Below the pieces are notes generated by a model. That model was not told where the DNA came from. It ran no database searches and saw only the letters and a program-made list of their open reading frames with translations. From Neobacillus vireti (GTDB lineage Bacteria > Bacillota > Bacilli > Bacillales > Cytobacillaceae), in the NCBI RefSeq assembly GCF_001026695.1, contig NZ_LDNB01000012.1, forward strand, positions 367,378 to 431,377: a stretch of 64,000 nt of DNA, given 5' to 3'. Shown piece after piece: positions 44,527-63,747 of the stretch. Position numbers and translations under genes: made by a program. Every line of letters starts with the position of its first letter. Position 1 is the first letter of the stretch.

Positions 44527-44569
44527 TGTGACAAACATCACAATAATGAGATGCTAAGATTTGTATGCT
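44527..44569 (+). promoter_or_regulatory. hcp promoter with a perfect Crp/Fnr box at -41.5
   Basis: TGTGA-CAAACA-TCACA (44527-44542) is the consensus palindrome for Crp/Fnr-family activators. A -10 hexamer TATGCT is at 44564-44569, which puts the predicted start near 44576 and the box centre 41.5 bases upstream, the class II activation position. No good -35 exists, as expected for an activator-dependent promoter. Confidence 0.75.
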
Positions 44570-44603: not shown

Positions 44604-45902
44604 ATGTTCTGTTATCAATGTGAACAAACCCCATCAGGTGGATGTACAATCATGGGGGTTTGTGGTAAAAATGAAACAATTGCAAGCTTACAAGACACAA
44701 TTATTTTTGGCTTAAAAGGAATTGCGGCCTATCGCACACATGCTAATCAGCTAGGGATTACAGACAGCTTTGTTGATGCTACAACACATGAAGCTCTTTA
44801 TTTGACATTAACGAACTCCAATTTTAATGTTCAAGAACATATTGATATGGCAATGAAAGTAGGACAGGCAGCTGTCCGGGTAATGGAAATGCTTGACGAG
44901 GCCCACACGAAGCGATTAGGTATCCCAGTGCCAATCCGTGTTAGTCAAAACAAAATTGAAGGCAAATGTATCGTCGTTACAGGTCATAATTTGTTTGCCT
45001 TAGAGGAACTATTGAAGCAAACAGAAGGTAAAGGAATAAATATTTATACTCATTCTGAAATGCTTCCTGCACACGGCTATCCGGCATTAAAAAAATATTC
45101 TCATCTTAAAGGCAATATCGGCAAAGCTTGGTATGACCAACGTCGTCTTTTTGAAAAATTCCCAGGGGCGATTCTTGCAACAACGAATTGCGTAATGCCA
45201 ATCAAAGGAACGTATGCGGACAGAATGTTTACATACGAGGTGGCAGGGCTTGAAAACGTAGAAAAAATTATCAATGATGATTTTAGCCCGTTAATTGACA
45301 GGGCATTAGAGCTTCCTGAAGCGGCAATCGATTCTGCTGAAACATTGTTAACAGGCTTCCATCATGAAACTGTTCTAGGGATTGCACCGGAAGTTATTGA
45401 CGCCGTTAAGGCTGGGAAAATAAAACGGTTCTTTGTCATTGCCGGATGTGACGCCCCCGGCCATGGCGGTGATTACTATCGTGAACTCGCTACATCATTA
45501 CCGCCAGAAACGGTAATTTTGACAACGTCCTGCGGAAAATTCCGCTTCAATGACGTTGACTACGGTGTTGTTCCCGGAACAGAGATTCCTCGATATATCG
45601 ACTTAGGCCAGTGCAACAATTCCGGCTCAACTGTGAAAATTGCGATGGCGCTAGCGGATGCATTTGGCTGTGAAGTGAATGAACTTCCAGTTAGTATTGT
45701 TTTGTCTTGGTTTGAACAAAAAGCAGTTGCGATTCTGCTCGGGCTGTTCAGCTTAGGAATCAAGGATATCCGTATTGGGCCAAAACCGCCTGAATTTATC
45801 GCGGAAGGAGTATTACAAGTCCTTCAAGAAACATTTAATTTAAAATTGATTGGTACAGTAAAAGAAGATATGGAAGAAATGCTTCAATTATCTGTGAAAT
45901 AA
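44604..45902 (+). CDS. hcp: Hybrid-cluster protein, short (class III-like) form
   Basis: 432 residues, against about 550 for class I/II Hcp. The N-terminal cluster motif is Cys3, Cys6, Cys14 and Cys20. All hybrid-cluster ligands are recognisable: His of VVTGHN, Glu of THSEMLPAHGYP, Cys of ATTNCVMP, IAGCDAPGHGGD, TTSCGKFRF and DLGQCNNSG, and Glu/Lys of SWFEQKA. Hcp reduces nitric oxide (and hydroxylamine in vitro) under low oxygen. The missing ~110 residues correspond to the second helical domain. There is no adjacent hcr reductase gene, so the electron donor is unknown. Confidence 0.93.
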   Translation: MFCYQCEQTPSGGCTIMGVCGKNETIASLQDTIIFGLKGIAAYRTHANQLGITDSFVDATTHEALYLTLTNSNFNVQEHIDMAMKVGQAAVRVMEMLDEAHTKRLGIPVPIRVSQNKIEGKCIVVTGHNLFALEELLKQTEGKGINIYTHSEMLPAHGYPALKKYSHLKGNIGKAWYDQRRLFEKFPGAILATTNCVMPIKGTYADRMFTYEVAGLENVEKIINDDFSPLIDRALELPEAAIDSAETLLTGFHHETVLGIAPEVIDAVKAGKIKRFFVIAGCDAPGHGGDYYRELATSLPPETVILTTSCGKFRFNDVDYGVVPGTEIPRYIDLGQCNNSGSTVKIAMALADAFGCEVNELPVSIVLSWFEQKAVAILLGLFSLGIKDIRIGPKPPEFIAEGVLQVLQETFNLKLIGTVKEDMEEMLQLSVK

Positions 45903-45936: not shown

Positions 45937-46635
45937 TCAGATAAGATTGATTTCTTCCATAAGAATCTCAACATCGACAATCATGTTTCCTTCATCATCT
46001 ACTTCAATTAGTTCTTCCTTTTTCATTTTTGTTAATGTCCGGCTAATCGTTTCCCTTGTCGTGCCAATCATATTGGCTAAATCCTTGTTGGTAAATTCGG
46101 ACGTTAAAAGAATGGTCCCATCGTCTTGTTCCTCACCGTGTTTCTGCGCAATCCGGATTAGTAATTTAATAATTTGTTCATAGGTATTATTAAGAATTTG
46201 TTCCTCCAGCCGGTTTTGCAGATCGACGATTTTCTCGCCAAGCACCTTAAACACCTTAATACATAGCTCAGGATTTTCTATAAGGACCGTTTCGAATTGG
46301 GAAATCGGCACAGCAATCAGCTTGGATGGTTCGAGAACCTCTGCATAGGCAGGATAGTCACCTTTTCTGAAAAAGCCGACATGTGGAAACATCTCACCCT
46401 TTTTCATGATGGCGACAATCTGCTCTTTGCCATTGACGTCACTTTTGTAAATTTTGATTTTCCCATCATAAATAAAATAGACGTTTTCAAGCGGGTCGCC
46501 TTGGAGGAAAACATGACTTTGCTTTTTCCAATCTCTTGCGATCGCAATATTGGTAATCTTCGATAATTCAAAATCATTTAATTCGCGAAAAAGAGTGAAA
46601 TCAGAAAGTACCCTCTTAATTTCTTCTATCCTCAT
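45937..46635 (-). CDS. Crp/Fnr-family transcriptional regulator
   Basis: 232 residues. The N-terminal cyclic-nucleotide-binding-like beta roll covers residues ~15-115 (VFLQGDPLENVYFIYDGKIK near 42). A long dimerisation helix is followed by a C-terminal winged helix with FTNKDLANMIGTTRETISRTLTKM near 180, carrying the ETxSR recognition-helix pattern that reads TGTGA. Only one cysteine is present, so the iron-sulfur sensing of Fnr is unlikely; cyclic-AMP-binding residues are not obvious. A haem or other NO/redox sensor is possible. It is convergent with hcp. Confidence 0.9.
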   Translation of the reverse strand: MRIEEIKRVLSDFTLFRELNDFELSKITNIAIARDWKKQSHVFLQGDPLENVYFIYDGKIKIYKSDVNGKEQIVAIMKKGEMFPHVGFFRKGDYPAYAEVLEPSKLIAVPISQFETVLIENPELCIKVFKVLGEKIVDLQNRLEEQILNNTYEQIIKLLIRIAQKHGEEQDDGTILLTSEFTNKDLANMIGTTRETISRTLTKMKKEELIEVDDEGNMIVDVEILMEEINLI

Positions 46636-56113: not shown

Positions 56114-56413
56114 TTATCTACCCAAATAACTTTTCCCTTCGGCGGTCATTTTATCAGGCGACCAAGCAGGTTCCCAGACAAGATTGACTTCTACATTTCT
56201 CGTTTCCTCGATTCCTTCGACACAATAGCGGACACCTTTTGTGATACTGTCATGGAGCGGGCACCCTGGAGTTGTCAGTGTCATCGTAATAGTTACATCG
56301 GCATCATCTGCAATCTCAACATTATAGATTAAGCCTAAATCAACAACGTTTATATTTAACTCCGGATCATAAACAGTTTTTAACTCATTAAGGACTTTTT
56401 CTTTTAAATTCAT
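56114..56413 (-). CDS. DUF59/MIP18-family iron-sulfur assembly protein
   Basis: 99 residues. YDPELNINVVDLGLIYNVEI near residue 15 and the Cys of TLTTPGCPLHDSI near residue 47 are hallmarks of the PaaD/SufT-like DUF59 family, which helps place iron-sulfur clusters on target proteins. It is the last gene of a four-gene minus-strand operon. A start at 56422 is open, but that GTG is in the GAGGTG ribosome binding site, so ATG 56413 is chosen. Its client here might be a redox protein of this operon or hcp (inference). Confidence 0.88.
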   Translation of the reverse strand: MNLKEKVLNELKTVYDPELNINVVDLGLIYNVEIADDADVTITMTLTTPGCPLHDSITKGVRYCVEGIEETRNVEVNLVWEPAWSPDKMTAEGKSYLGR

Positions 56414-56426
56414 GGTAAACACCTCA

Positions 56427-57671
56427 TTATTTTTTTAGGACGCTAAGAATACTGTATGAAATAACAATTAGCACAATTGAGAGGATAAACTGACCGATAT
56501 TAAAGAGAATTGCCGCTTTAAAGACGAATGAAGTAAAGACAATCAAAACGGCAGCGACAAATAATGAAAATAACGGAACAACTATCTTCTCATTCATCAT
56601 ATCCTTTAAGGACGGAACCGCATTTTTACCGATTTCCTTGCTATATTTATACGTCCACCAAAGGAATGGAACAATCTTATATAAATATCCAACAATACTT
56701 AGGACAATCCAAAGCAATAAATAGCTATAAATCAGTGGACCTGCAAGCGTTGAAAATGACCGTGTCCTAAGGACAATAAAGGCTGCCAAATGAATGAGAT
56801 TTCCAAAGCCAATTGCAAGTAAAGCAAACGTAAACGGTTTATCCAGTTTTTTCTTTAATCTCTTTTTAATGATGATGCTTATATGCCAGCTGAAAATTGA
56901 AAATCCAGCCAAGAGTAAAAAGAAGCCAATTTTCGTAAGAACACTATTATTAGAAATGAAAGAAATAATCGTTATTACGAGGCCAGATACATATATGCTA
57001 TAAACATATCGCGCCTGAACCATCGGAAACCCATGAGATAACGAAAACATCGGTACCATCTTATAGGAGAATCCGAAGATTAGTAACGTAAACCAGCCTG
57101 TTATTCCCATTAATAGATGAATCTTAAAAATCGTTTGATAGTATTCGGCTCCAATCCCTGTTTTTAAACAATAGATTAAGGTTATTCCCAGGAAAATAGT
57201 TAGAAACAAGCAAACCAAGGCTGAACCAACAAAAGCGGTGAGAATGGTTGGTTTTGCCTGCTTTTTTAAGGTCATCACCATTTGAAATAAAAACATTAAT
57301 ATACCGACTAAGGTAAGGATTCCAGGAATCATTGCCTTTTGCGGTGCACAATAAAGCATACCCGAAAACGACGCAATTCCTGCTGCGGTTACAAAAAATT
57401 GGATAAAGCCAAATTTCTCATTCCATATGTTTGTAAGAAAAGCGACAGGGACGAGCTGGTACATCGCTCCCATTGCCACCATTAACGCCCAGCCAAGGAT
57501 TAATAAATGAGCGGAAGACCAAATAGCCGGAAGTCGAAAACTTCCGTCCACCATCATTTGGCCATTTAGTAAAAGCAGTATTTGTGAAAAAACTAAAGCA
57601 ACAATGCTAAAAAAGATAAATGAGAAAGGAAGCTTAATATTTGTTTCATTTCCCATGTTTTGAGGAAGCAT
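56427..57671 (-). CDS. Twelve-helix membrane protein with threefold repeat, haem-copper-oxidase-like
   Basis: 414 residues, about 12 membrane helices, no signal peptide. Three repeats of ~130 residues each carry the motif Y-x-x-V-P: YQLVP at 71, YKMVP at 203 and YKIVP at 331. In the first two a His lies 16-18 residues earlier (AHLLILGW, His55; IHLLMGITGW, His185); in the third the position is Tyr. Other His: 213, 263, 294. The architecture recalls subunit I of haem-copper oxidases and NnrS, but the HH and HxH ligands of CuB and the active-site haem are missing. It lies 14 bases after a DUF2249 gene and 13 before DUF59. Confidence 0.75.
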   Translation of the reverse strand: MLPQNMGNETNIKLPFSFIFFSIVALVFSQILLLLNGQMMVDGSFRLPAIWSSAHLLILGWALMVAMGAMYQLVPVAFLTNIWNEKFGFIQFFVTAAGIASFSGMLYCAPQKAMIPGILTLVGILMFLFQMVMTLKKQAKPTILTAFVGSALVCLFLTIFLGITLIYCLKTGIGAEYYQTIFKIHLLMGITGWFTLLIFGFSYKMVPMFSLSHGFPMVQARYVYSIYVSGLVITIISFISNNSVLTKIGFFLLLAGFSIFSWHISIIIKKRLKKKLDKPFTFALLAIGFGNLIHLAAFIVLRTRSFSTLAGPLIYSYLLLWIVLSIVGYLYKIVPFLWWTYKYSKEIGKNAVPSLKDMMNEKIVVPLFSLFVAAVLIVFTSFVFKAAILFNIGQFILSIVLIVISYSILSVLKK

Positions 57672-57685
57672 GATGGTTCACCATC

Positions 57686-57892
57686 TTAGCGAAAAATTTC
57701 AATTTTAAAACTTCCGTCTTCTTGTGCTTCTGTTTGCTGCTGATAGCCCAGTTCTTCAAGCTGCTCGTAAAGAAACATTGGCCTTCTATCATTAAAAATC
57801 GTTAAAACCTCATTTTCCCCCAGCGTTTCCAAAGCCGCTAACGTTCTCATCATCGGCTGCGGCGGCTCTAATCCACGGTTATCTAAAATCAT
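57686..57892 (-). CDS. DUF2249 protein (TusA-like fold), copy 2
   Basis: 68 residues. LDNRGLEPPQPMMRTLAALE, LGENEVLTIFNDRRPMFLYE and LEELGYQQQT are the three blocks of the DUF2249 domain. The ND-x-x-P turn is kept as NDRRP. No cysteine is present, so a TusA-type sulfur carrier role is excluded. AAAGGTGAT precedes the ATG. It lies between another DUF2249 gene and the 12-helix membrane protein gene in one operon. Confidence 0.85.
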   Translation of the reverse strand: MILDNRGLEPPQPMMRTLAALETLGENEVLTIFNDRRPMFLYEQLEELGYQQQTEAQEDGSFKIEIFR

Positions 57893-57909
57893 TCGAAATC
57901 ACCTTTCCT

Positions 57910-58143
57910 CTATGCTTTTTTCGTGAACGTTACCTTCCAATGCTTTTTCTCCAGTTCTTCTTCTTCATGGCTAAAGCCTTTTGCCTTTAACACAGCGAAA
58001 AGCGGGACAGGTTTAAAAGGTGCATGGAGGATAAAGATATCATTTGCTCCGAGCTCTTTCATAGCCTCCATAATTTTTTGAAAAGGTTCTATTTTACTTT
58101 TTAAATCATCGCGTACGTCAAGTTCAATGATTCTCTGTTCCAT
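57910..58143 (-). CDS. DUF2249 protein, copy 1
   Basis: 77 residues from ATG 58143 (MEQRIIELDVRDDL). It has the DUF2249 blocks ELDVRDDLKSKIEPFQKIM and LGANDIFILHAPFKPVPLFA, with the closing WKVTF strand; the acidic NDHDP turn is replaced by HAPFKP. The frame is open from GTG 58206, but GAGGAGATG is well placed for 58143. It is the first gene of the minus-strand operon. Family function is unknown; members are often found with haemerythrins and NO reductases. Confidence 0.82.
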   Translation of the reverse strand: MEQRIIELDVRDDLKSKIEPFQKIMEAMKELGANDIFILHAPFKPVPLFAVLKAKGFSHEEEELEKKHWKVTFTKKA

Positions 58144-58446
58144 CTGGTAACATCTCCTCATATTTTTTATGGCTTTAATAGATAAGCTCCTGTTGCAACG
58201 CCTCACAGTTGATTAGGTAAAACCCTTGATGTCCTCTTGCTTCATTAACATCACCTTCATATTAGTAATTCGATTTAGCTTCATTTTAGCTATGATTCCA
58301 CACTGATAATGTGACCTCCATCATAGATAAATCATTTTTGTTGAAAATAATTCTCAATGTGACAATTTTGTGAAAAAACATTCAGCAATGTGCTGATCTG
58401 AAATGAGGTTCTTCACTATGTGAAGGATAGGTGGATAGTAAAAGTA
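58144..58446 (-). promoter_or_regulatory. Upstream region of the minus-strand DUF2249 operon
   Basis: About 300 bases with no convincing gene. It holds several dyads: CTTCAC-TAT-GTGAAG at 58411-58425, TCAGC-AATGT-GCTGA at 58382-58396 and CACA-CTGATAA-TGTG at about 58299-58313. TGTGA occurs twice as a direct repeat at 58358-58373. On the minus strand a 23-codon frame with a weak context occurs before the GTG at 58206. Clustering of dyads suggests regulated transcription, but no consensus Crp/Fnr palindrome is present. Confidence 0.4.
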
Positions 58447-58477
58447 AAACCCGCAAAGCTCAGCTTTGCGGGTTTTC
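58447..58477. terminator. Perfect palindromic terminator
   Basis: AAAACCCGCAAAGCT and AGCTTTGCGGGTTTT pair perfectly. It terminates the small zinc-ribbon gene on the minus strand, whose stop codon lies inside the hairpin, and insulates the DUF2249 operon. Confidence 0.92.
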
Positions 58478-58612
58478 ATCTGTTTTGCTCAATTTCTCAT
58501 AGCATTCAAAGCAATAATTCTCTTTTTCTTTGGTTTTTACACCATTAAAGAAGCCATCCAAACAAAAGATTTCTTTTTCGCAGCATTTACAAGTTCCTAT
58601 TAGTTCCTGCAT
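58460..58612 (-). CDS. 50-residue zinc-ribbon-like protein
   Basis: The protein starts MQELIGTCKCCEKEIFCLDG and ends KTDENPQS. Cysteines form two knuckles, C-K-C-C near residues 8-11 and C-F-E-C near residues 34-37, with an extra Cys17, so it probably binds zinc. The start codon follows GGGGGT at good spacing. It is divergent from the plus-strand DUF2249 gene and between two DUF2249 loci. Function unknown; a regulator or metal-dependent adaptor is possible. Confidence 0.65.
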   Translation of the reverse strand: MQELIGTCKCCEKEIFCLDGFFNGVKTKEKENYCFECYEKLSKTDENPQS

Positions 58613-58650: not shown

Positions 58651-58693
58651 TGTGATTCCACGCACTAAGTGTGTAACGATGTTTCCTTATAAT
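58651..58693 (+). promoter_or_regulatory. Promoter of the plus-strand DUF2249 gene with degenerate Crp/Fnr-like box
   Basis: TGTGA-TTCCAC-GCACT (58651-58666) keeps the left half-site exactly and CAC of the right. TATAAT at 58688-58693 predicts a start near 58700, which places the box centre 41.5 bases upstream, the same geometry as at hcp. Confidence 0.5.
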
Positions 58694-58729: not shown

Positions 58730-58963
58730 ATGCAAACTTATGTAAAGGTCATCAATGTACCAGATTTCCCGCCACGCGAAAAGCATCCAACCATCTTTAA
58801 CGGATTTGACGAACTAGCATCTGGCGAGACGATGATGATTGTGAATGACCATGATCCAAGACCGCTATTATATCAGTTTATGATGGAAAGACCTGAACAA
58901 TTTTCTTGGGAATACCTAGAAGAGGGTCCGGAAACCTGGAAAGTGTCAATCAGCAAAAAGTAA
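58730..58963 (+). CDS. DUF2249 protein, copy 3
   Basis: 77 residues. It is the most canonical of the three: FNGFDELASGETMMIVNDHD then PRPLLYQFMMERPEQFSWEY, with the NDHDP turn intact and a closing TWKVSI strand. TAGGAGTGA precedes ATG 58730; the longer open frame to 58652 would run through the promoter. Monocistronic and divergent from the zinc-ribbon gene. Confidence 0.88.
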   Translation: MQTYVKVINVPDFPPREKHPTIFNGFDELASGETMMIVNDHDPRPLLYQFMMERPEQFSWEYLEEGPETWKVSISKK

Positions 58964-61603: not shown

Positions 61604-63271
61604 TCACCATTTACTCCAAGTCTGGAATCCTTTGGAGCCTGGTGGTGCGTTTTGGATGATATCGATAAATGGTATCGTGTATGCGAAAAGAATGAGTGCT
61701 GCCGCAATGCCGAGCCATAATTTCCAGTTTTCAAACACCATTGGTGCTTTTTCTTCAAGGTTTTCAGCTTCTGCAACTGGGAATTCTTCTTCCCCTTTTG
61801 GAGCAAAGAACGCTAGATTTACAAAGATGATTAACACGAGAATAATACCAAGGAATAAAATCGTACCGCCAACTGCTTGAGCGATTTGGTAAGGAATCCA
61901 TTCAGCAGCTTGCTCGGAACCGCCGTAAGTGGAGAAAGCAGAACGTCTTGGTCCCCCTAGGAGCCCTTGGAAATGCATCGCCCCTGACATGAAGGCCATG
62001 CCAATGAACCAAACCCATCCCTGAATAATCGCTAATTTATTCATTGCTTTTGTTAATTTTCTTCCCGTTAAATGCGGAACCAACCAGTATGAAATTCCAA
62101 AGAACGTTAACACAACAGAAGTAGCTGCTGTTAAATGGAAGTGACCGGTAATCCAAATCGTGTTATGCACGACTTGGTCCATTTGGTTGGAAGCATTGAT
62201 AATTCCACCTGCACCGGCAGGAATAAATGCAGCCATCCCAATAAAAGGAACGATAAAGCGAGCATCGCCCCATGGAAGAACCTTAAACCAGCCAAACAAA
62301 CCTCTTGCTCCCTTGCTGCGTCCGTATCTCTCGAAGGTTGCGAATAAAGAGAACGCCGTCATTAATGATGGGATTACAACCATGAAAGTTAGGATCACCT
62401 GGAAGAATTTCCAAGCTGGGTCAATTCCGGGTTCTGTTAATTGGTGATGGAAACCAACCGGAATCGAGAAGAGCAGGAATAAAATAAACGATAAGCGTGC
62501 AAGTGAATCTGAGAAAATTTTTCCGCCAATAATTTTAGGAATAATCGCATACCAACACATGTAGGCTGGCAGTAACCAGAAATACACTAAAGGGTGACCA
62601 AAATACCAGAACAATGTCCGGCTGACTAAAACATTAACTGTAGGAACTAAACCAAGTGACCAAGGCAGCAATTGGAATAAAACAGTAGCGGCTACACCTA
62701 AAGTTGCGATAATCCACATAACGGTATTTATTACAGCCATAAAGCTTAATAATGGACTAGGTTTTCCTGGATTGTTCCTGCGCCATCTAGCGTACGTCAT
62801 GATTTGAGCAGCACCGTCAATCCAACTTCCGACAATCACAAAGGTTAAGCCTAAGTAGAAAATCCAATGGGCTTTAAGCGGAGCATAAAATGTATAAAGT
62901 ACGGATGCTTCTTTAAGTAAAACCATCGTAGCAGCCATTAATGTACCGACTAACATGACCCAGAAGCCAATCCAGCCAGTTCGTCGAGCGGCATTCGAAT
63001 GTCCGCCTGTTGTTCTGCTTACTGCAGCATATTGAAATCCCATAATAAAGAAAGTAGTTAAAACAAGACCCATTAAGACACCATGTACTGTTAAGATTTG
63101 ATAATAATCAATTCCCCATGGCAGTTCCCATTTGCCTGATCGGACAAGAGTTTGCAGGAGACCCATTAATCCGCCAAGAGCAAGCGCTGAAAAGGCAACA
63201 AAAAAGTGTGCCATGGAAAGCTTCGCATCACGAGGATCAACTTTTACTTTTGCAGCTGTAGAAGTAACCAT
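61604..63271 (-). CDS. cbaB: ba3-type cytochrome c oxidase subunit I
   Basis: 555 residues, 12-13 membrane helices. All metal ligands of a haem-copper oxidase are visible: low-spin haem His in TVHGVLMGL near residue 64, CuB His-Tyr in FGHPLVYFW near 228, HH in GFHHQLTEPG near 277, and HFH in ITGHFHLTAA near 377. It reduces oxygen to water and pumps protons. Family assignment to b(o/a)3 (B-type) rests on the short subunit II and presence of IIA. Overlaps cbaA by one base. Confidence 0.95.
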   Translation of the reverse strand: MVTSTAAKVKVDPRDAKLSMAHFFVAFSALALGGLMGLLQTLVRSGKWELPWGIDYYQILTVHGVLMGLVLTTFFIMGFQYAAVSRTTGGHSNAARRTGWIGFWVMLVGTLMAATMVLLKEASVLYTFYAPLKAHWIFYLGLTFVIVGSWIDGAAQIMTYARWRRNNPGKPSPLLSFMAVINTVMWIIATLGVAATVLFQLLPWSLGLVPTVNVLVSRTLFWYFGHPLVYFWLLPAYMCWYAIIPKIIGGKIFSDSLARLSFILFLLFSIPVGFHHQLTEPGIDPAWKFFQVILTFMVVIPSLMTAFSLFATFERYGRSKGARGLFGWFKVLPWGDARFIVPFIGMAAFIPAGAGGIINASNQMDQVVHNTIWITGHFHLTAATSVVLTFFGISYWLVPHLTGRKLTKAMNKLAIIQGWVWFIGMAFMSGAMHFQGLLGGPRRSAFSTYGGSEQAAEWIPYQIAQAVGGTILFLGIILVLIIFVNLAFFAPKGEEEFPVAEAENLEEKAPMVFENWKLWLGIAAALILFAYTIPFIDIIQNAPPGSKGFQTWSKW

Positions 63272-63747
63272 TATTTTACCACCTCAATCTTTGAGTACAT
63301 TAAATGGTGTCCAGCACCACAGTATTCGTTACAAACAATTAAATATTCGCCTGCTTTGTTAAATGTTGTTGTATATTCACTGATGTATCCAGGTTCAAGC
63401 ATCATGTTAATATTTGTTCCGGCAACTTCAAAACCGTGAATAACATCTTTTGTTGTAGCAATAACTTTTACCTTTGCCCCTAGAGGTACTTCTACTTGTG
63501 CTGGGCTATATGAGAACGTAGATGCGACAAAGACTAATTCGTATTCCCAATCTTTGCCATCCACTTTGTGTAGGCCTGGTTCATTAAATGGTTTTTCCTG
63601 ACCGACAGTTTCCGGATTAACCGTTGTTAGGCAGCTTGGCGGCTTGTTGCCAAGATAGAAGGCACTAACACCAATGACTGTCAAAAAAATGACCAGGCAG
63701 CTAGTCCCGAAAATCAGCCAGATTCTTTCTAATTTATGCATGTGCAT
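63271..63747 (-). CDS. cbaA: ba3-type cytochrome c oxidase subunit II (CuA)
   Basis: 158 residues, with a single N-terminal membrane helix (residues 8-31), as in ba3 oxidases. The CuA site is HGFEVAG (His) and CNEYCGAGHHLM (Cys, Cys, His, Met) near residues 137-148. It takes electrons from cytochrome c outside the membrane. AAGGGGGGAACAAAT precedes ATG 63747. It is the middle gene of the IIA-II-I operon. Confidence 0.95.
   Translation of the reverse strand: MHMHKLERIWLIFGTSCLVIFLTVIGVSAFYLGNKPPSCLTTVNPETVGQEKPFNEPGLHKVDGKDWEYELVFVASTFSYSPAQVEVPLGAKVKVIATTKDVIHGFEVAGTNINMMLEPGYISEYTTTFNKAGEYLIVCNEYCGAGHHLMYSKIEVVK

Follow-up and report, generated by a model that had tools for sequence, protein, structure and literature searches.

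What does a membrane protein with the predicted fold of a nitric oxide (NO) reductase do once most of the residues needed for catalysis are absent? The question is raised by a four-gene operon of Neobacillus vireti, which we analysed within a 64,000-nucleotide stretch of contig NZ_LDNB01000012.1 (the window) and which encodes two small DUF2249 proteins (DUF2249a and DUF2249b), a 12-helix membrane protein and a DUF59 iron-sulfur (Fe-S) factor. We found that this four-gene module is conserved and co-inherited, that it is linked to NO-producing and NO-consuming genes, and that in this genome it has outlived an adjacent NO reductase gene and regulator gene, both now lost. Our tentative answer, to which we give a probability of roughly 40%, is that a haem-bearing membrane protein docking DUF2249a, DUF2249b and DUF59 may act as an NO-stress accessory for iron and Fe-S centres, with no turnover of NO.

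Conservation of the four-gene order

The genes follow one another in the order DUF2249a, DUF2249b, membrane gene and DUF59, with gaps of 17, 14 and 13 bases. The sequence-only reading of this DNA had proposed such an operon, with gaps of 13-17 bases, two cysteine-free DUF2249 proteins and a gene order that should recur in other genomes; its coordinates and gaps were correct, and neither window protein contains cysteine. We compared 78 named loci, taken from the best 80 of 505 confirmed matches with flanks of up to 10 kb, a set in which Bacillaceae dominate and contig ends clip some flanks. DUF59 lies just downstream of the membrane gene in 77 of the 78, and the order DUF2249, membrane gene, DUF59 on one strand is kept in 74, which rules out a chance operon and bears out the expected co-conservation. 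The near flanks (6.5 kb upstream, 3.5 kb downstream) hold a c-type DUF2249 gene at 56 loci, a Crp/Fnr gene at 48, the quinol-type NO reductase gene qNor at 25 and nirK at 7. In a separate draw of 121 genomes from the family, 70 matched the membrane protein; after the short, weak matches in G013 and G074 were dropped, 68 carriers remained (the match in G004 is partial), and DUF2249 was present in all 68 carriers versus 13 of the 53 other genomes.

More distant relatives of the membrane protein (18-27% identity) have similar neighbours. The Ensifer locus carries norB, hemN, DUF2249, the 12-helix protein, a two-domain DUF2249 protein, DUF59, NnrS and nirK, and the nir-nor region of Sinorhizobium meliloti 1021 (L037) has the same gene set, in a comparison that covered all of these genes but hemN. 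The Haloprofundus locus contains nirK, DUF2249 genes and the 12-helix protein, and the Aliarcobacter locus a sub-threshold DUF2249, the 12-helix protein and DUF59. An operon on a Thermus plasmid (L038, 6807-10605) encodes DUF2249, a 260-aa DUF1858+2xDUF2249 protein, a single-unit COX1-like protein of 144 aa, a protoglobin, the 12-helix protein and DUF59. Separately, some genomes of the class Bacilli, G206, G162 and G406 for example, encode a further 12-helix paralogue at greater distance (E about 1e-40).

Predicted fold of the membrane protein

The sole Pfam signal of the membrane protein is a sub-threshold match to COX1 (E 0.004). The AlphaFold2 model has twelve long helices, as many as had been read from the sequence, and it matches oxidase subunit I and NorB over its whole length, with 13% identity to cbb3 CcoN and 12% to NorB in the structural match. 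The protein is built of three homologous 4-helix units and has two conserved histidines; H55 in transmembrane helix (TM) 2 and H185 in TM6 are the only invariant ones in the family, and the alignment, with helices taken from AlphaFold2, has no invariant histidine in TM7 or TM10. Catalytic haem-copper oxidases and NO reductases carry histidines in TM2, TM6, TM7 (two) and TM10 (two) as ligands of their haems and of CuB or FeB. Unlike CcoN and NorB, the membrane protein lacks the TM7 and TM10 ligands, and an ordinary catalytic oxidase or NO reductase is ruled out by their absence. The prediction is therefore of a complete NO reductase or cbb3 oxidase subunit fold that lacks most of the catalytic ligands. 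For the membrane haem or metal protein proposed earlier, this supports the fold. The conserved face of the protein is its cytoplasmic side.

In profile searches, the diverse profile A1 matched three PDB sequences, and it scored weakly against the window's own oxidase subunit (E 0.024) and at E 0.004 against the Thermus single-unit protein; a PDB search with profile A2 gave nothing at E<=10.

The DUF2249 and DUF59 partners

Pfam assigned DUF2249 to protein a with E 7e-16 and to protein b with E 2e-18, and the three DUF2249 proteins of the window scored 58.3, 66.6 and 98.8 bits against PF10006, whose gathering cut-off is 29.5. Absence of cysteine extends to 57/64 and 52/64 of the aligned a and b open reading frames (ORFs), window included and with mechanically assigned starts. 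In DUF2249a, H41 and H69 are conserved, in a translation numbered with one extra leading residue. Like TusA, DUF2249b scores above the Pfam cut-off of that family (E 8e-9, 35.7 versus 28.6 bits). The catalytic cysteine of TusA sits in a CPxP motif; unlike TusA, DUF2249b has a proline at that place (GLEPPQP) in 64/64 aligned sequences, and by this mark is not a TusA sulfurtransferase. DUF2249a and DUF2249b are fused in 13 loci, from Paenibacillaceae and one Pullulanibacillus, and this, together with the two-domain protein of Ensifer, suggests that the two work together.

The fourth protein, proposed earlier as an Fe-S assembly factor, does match FeS_assembly_P (PF01883, DUF59; E 2e-20, 73.1 bits versus a cut-off of 23.5), keeps C51 in 75/75 aligned sequences (window included) and matches solved homologues such as TM0487 at E 8e-22. 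It shares its domain with the DUF59/SufT/MIP18 assembly factors, but falls short of the curated thresholds set for SUF-type models.

Association with genes of NO metabolism

NirK-like proteins were defined by at least 130 bits to TIGR02376, a model whose 296-bit cut-off was reached by none of the 121 genomes of the family draw or the 299 of a second draw from the class; the copper ligands were inspected in 11 NirK-like sequences, of which the family draw supplied 5. In the family draw, the membrane protein was present in 30 of the 32 NirK-like genomes (one of which has a stop codon inside the gene) and in 32 of the 39 with qNor. It occurred in 52/61 genomes with NirK-like or qNor versus 16/60 with neither (Fisher p 4e-11; like all association tests here, calculated without a tree). 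Shuffling labels within genera retained the association for NirK (p 0.0003) and for the union of NirK and qNor (p 0.0008). In the class draw, where 66 genomes were carriers at E<=1e-10, some by a distant paralogue or a fragment only, the membrane protein was found in 30/35 NirK genomes versus 36/264 others (Fisher p 6e-18).

Of the 32 family-draw carriers with qNor, 31 have it no more than 8 kb from the membrane gene. In the class draw, 13 NirK genes have a copy of the membrane gene at 5 kb or less, which in G308 and G168 is the distant paralogue. Hcp was found in 78/121 genomes (a partial, sub-cut-off match in G014 having been dropped), 51 of which are carriers. Among the 42 carriers whose hcp and membrane gene share a contig, 39 have the two 9.8-18.4 kb apart, a conserved synteny; in G077 they are 1.2 Mb apart. 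NirK, qNor or Hcp was present in 68/68 carriers versus 27/53 non-carriers, a grouping picked after seeing the data. The link to NO that had been suspected from DUF2249 thus holds for co-occurrence and for proximity. As a side observation, the NirK-like genes at L123 3492-4889 and L124 3192-4622 face the operon and encode an extra C-terminal, cupredoxin-looking stretch.

A reduced locus in Neobacillus vireti

In the fuller loci of relatives, the c-type DUF2249 gene is separated from the operon by a small ORF, by qNor and by a Crp/Fnr gene, the last of which precedes DUF2249a on the same strand. The window aligns with these loci up to both edges of its deletions: qNor is absent, and the first 17 bases of the regulator gene (58245..58229) almost adjoin its last 51 (58225..58175). 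Because both ends of the regulator remain, we place the deletion in the lineage of the window. The Crp/Fnr box at 58310 was retained despite the loss of the regulator; its reverse complement, TATGATGGAGGTCACA, is found before the regulator gene in several relatives, where Crp/Fnr-type boxes stand before that gene. The genome encodes NarG (over cut-off), Hcp and an NO synthase. A search of it with one NorB query found no NO reductase at E<=1e-3, and NirK was likewise not found at E<=1e-30 (best match 6e-4).

The four operon ORFs are intact, and the ratio of nonsynonymous to synonymous change (dN/dS) is low where computable, although it indicates constraint only loosely, dS being undefined in 6/24 four-gene pairs and mostly saturated otherwise. 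In relative-rate tests against relatives that keep qNor, the four window proteins showed no excess of changes; two of 60 overlapping comparisons fell below 0.05, and in each it was the relative that had changed more. The four proteins are therefore probably still used. In the family draw 16 of the 68 carriers, the genome of the window among them, have neither NirK-like nor qNor; besides the genome of the window, 13 carriers lack NirK, qNor and the second NO reductase class as well.

Relation to known systems

Pei et al. reportedly described, in 2014, haem-copper-oxidase homologues (HCOH, including NnrS) with 12 helices, three units and two conserved histidines, an account that also weighs against the novelty which the sequence-only reading had thought possible. 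By that definition, the membrane protein resembles the three-unit HCOH in its 12 helices, three units, two histidines and denitrification-locus neighbours; unlike HCOH/NnrS, it has DUF2249 and DUF59 as steady partners. NnrS (PF05940) gave no Pfam match for the window protein, nor for its S. meliloti (L037), Paenibacillus (L106) and Thermus (L038) relatives, whereas the NnrS of Ensifer was matched at 8e-111; with an hhalign E of 0.26 against one NnrS sequence, an NnrS identity is rejected.

We take COG4309 to be DUF2249. The novelty claim was also too strong in that Rodionov et al. had connected COG4309 with NO reductase genes by 2005 (in a passage of PMC1274295). In Haloferax mediterranei all four DUF2249 genes are induced under denitrification (as stated in part of PMC11218638). 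That last paper has a passage citing Pei et al. 2014 for a link of DUF2249 with the haem-copper oxidase superfamily; PMC4602095 contains a citation of the same work for the fold, and PMC10790758 has it among its references. In the literature searched, we found no description of this four-gene operon.

DrpA and DrpB of Thermus are DUF2249 proteins tied to nitrate respiration and offer the closest experimental parallel. According to passages of PMC6282519, single deletions of drpA or drpB are mild, and the drpAB double mutant loses nitrate control and has about one tenth of the nitrate reductase activity, NarG still being made. This phenotype would be compatible with sensing as well as with maturation or repair. 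Unlike the present operon, the one studied, drpAB, is bicistronic (part of PMC6282519), and the 260-aa Thermus protein beside the 12-helix protein and DUF59 is DrpB-like by domain make-up only.

Proposed role and alternatives

In our preferred model of an NO-stress accessory, one low-spin haem b would be held between H55 and H185, and the conserved cytoplasmic face would dock the DUF2249a/b pair, as cysteine-less TusA-like adaptors, and, at the same face, the DUF59 factor. The complex would help to keep or rebuild iron or Fe-S centres during NO production, for which NirK would be responsible in many relatives; in this genome the NO perhaps comes from NO synthase or arises as a by-product when nitrate is respired. 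The complex would not itself turn NO over.

Several observations weigh against this model. In the family draw qNor alone was not significant under within-genus shuffling (p 0.27), and 7 of the 39 qNor genomes are without the module; NarG (23/37 versus 45/84) and the second NO reductase class (11/19) are not associated with it, and NO synthase is negatively associated (16/46 versus 52/75, the 46 remaining after fragmentary matches in G050 and G085 were dropped). No DUF59 gene was found beside the two haloarchaeal copies, in Haloprofundus and Halorhabdus, in the stretches examined. The parallels with DUF59 and Drp proteins hold at the family level only, and electrons could not readily reach cytosolic partners from one haem located close to the outer side.

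A bolder version, which we consider improbable, places the haem in an unusual position. H55 precedes a helix tyrosine by 16 residues, like the second TM10 histidine of oxidases, and H185 by 18, like their TM2 histidine, with inner and outer placement taken from hydropathy helices rather than from the AlphaFold2 model. Given the ligand roles of these histidines in oxidases, the spacings suggest that the pair may match the low-spin haem pair rotated by 120 degrees, and the haem would then sit in the pseudo-threefold pore that oxidases leave empty. A catalysis-free NO reductase fold with its single haem shifted by one pseudo-threefold unit, and DUF2249a/b and DUF59 on its inner face, would be a new class of membrane-anchored NO-protection or Fe-S-repair complex.

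Among the alternatives, an unlikely one that nevertheless survives best is maturation of, or electron supply to, NirK or NO reductase, by assembly of a metal site or by transfer from menaquinol to NirK. It would account for the position of nirK, immediately upstream at several loci of the Paenibacillus type (L106, L109, L112, L114, L115 and L117), for the 30/35 NirK genomes of the class draw and for the closeness of qNor in 31/32 carriers, but 16 of the 68 carriers, including the present genome, have neither enzyme, and the conserved face and soluble partners are cytoplasmic, whereas NirK is located outside the cytoplasm. COG4309 has been called possibly relevant for NO reductase (in a passage of PMC1274295), which favours this explanation.

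Slightly less likely still is a sensor of NO or nitrite, in which a haem membrane protein and DUF2249 would signal to the preceding Crp/Fnr regulator, compare DrpA and DrpB. The regulator gene in the near flanks of 48/78 loci with boxes before it, the protoglobin of the Thermus operon and the loss of nitrate control of nar expression in drpAB mutants (passages of PMC6282519) agree with sensing. The window, however, dropped this regulator and its four genes are intact and unaccelerated, though it retains a paralogue at a distance of about 11 kb, and an Fe-S factor would be an odd partner for a sensor.

We doubt strongly that the operon is here a dying remnant of a denitrification island: the deletion scars and the lack of NO reductase and NirK matches, at the thresholds given, invite that view, but the ORFs are intact, the operator is kept, dN/dS is low where computable, unique changes are not in excess over relatives that keep qNor, and 13 other carriers are likewise without NirK, qNor and the second NO reductase class. 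A minimal or unusual NO reductase, or an NO-binding scavenger, is very improbable despite the NO reductase-like predicted fold and the linkage to NO genes, since the family has two invariant histidines throughout and none in TM7 or TM10.

Other features of the window

The sequence-only reading had missed the DUF2249c gene, a cysteine-rich ORF of about 50 aa and the deletion scars between them. The cysteine-rich ORF has tblastn matches in 43/78 loci and none in a Pfam search, and is probably a further component of the locus. The remaining Crp/Fnr-family regulator shares 54-58% identity with the 15 best matches among 44 operon-preceding regulators in relatives. Crp/Fnr sites with at most one mismatch number 6 in the window, against 1.6 expected, and 1/100 shuffles reached as many. 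A two-subunit cytochrome oxidase (COX1 and COX2 matches) is encoded near the locus, at 61604-63747.

Table 1. Coordinates of the operon and of neighbouring features in the window.
Feature	Position	Strand	Remarks
DUF2249 protein a	57910..58143	-	77 aa, first gene of operon; Pfam DUF2249
DUF2249 protein b	57686..57892	-	68 aa; Pfam DUF2249, TusA-like
12-helix membrane protein	56427..57671	-	414 aa; predicted haem-copper oxidase / NO reductase fold
DUF59 (FeS_assembly_P) protein	56114..56413	-	99 aa; Pfam
DUF2249 protein c	58730..58963	+	77 aa, divergent from operon; HP..IF and NDHDP motifs conserved
Cysteine-rich (zinc-ribbon-like) ORF	58460..58612	-	about 50 aa; conserved; tblastn
Terminator-like hairpin, bidirectional	58446..58476		between qNor end and small-ORF end in relatives
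Crp/Fnr-type box TGTGACCTCCATCATA	58310..58325		matches 9/10 positions
Weaker Crp/Fnr-type box	58651..58666		8/10 positions; ahead of DUF2249c gene
Regulator-gene 5' remnant (Crp/Fnr family, deleted)	58229..58245	-	comparison with relatives
Regulator-gene 3' remnant (same gene)	58175..58225	-	match to L041
Former qNor position (NO reductase, about 790 aa in fuller loci; deleted here)	about 58381..58445
Hydroxylamine reductase / hybrid cluster protein Hcp	44604..45902	+
Perfect Crp/Fnr box	44527-44542		ahead of hcp
Remaining Crp/Fnr-family regulator	45937..46635	-	single cysteine; convergent with hcp

Implications

The operon gives a concrete set of partners to a haem-copper-oxidase homologue free of a catalytic site, and also to DUF2249, a domain whose tie to NO reductase genes dates from 2005 and to which the literature found assigns no biochemical role. 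If the rotated-haem arrangement were true, that class of complex would have relatives in bacteria and haloarchaea. If the preferred model of an NO-stress accessory holds, bacteria, and perhaps haloarchaea, would have in common an NO-protection complex whose scaffold is a retired NO-reductase fold.
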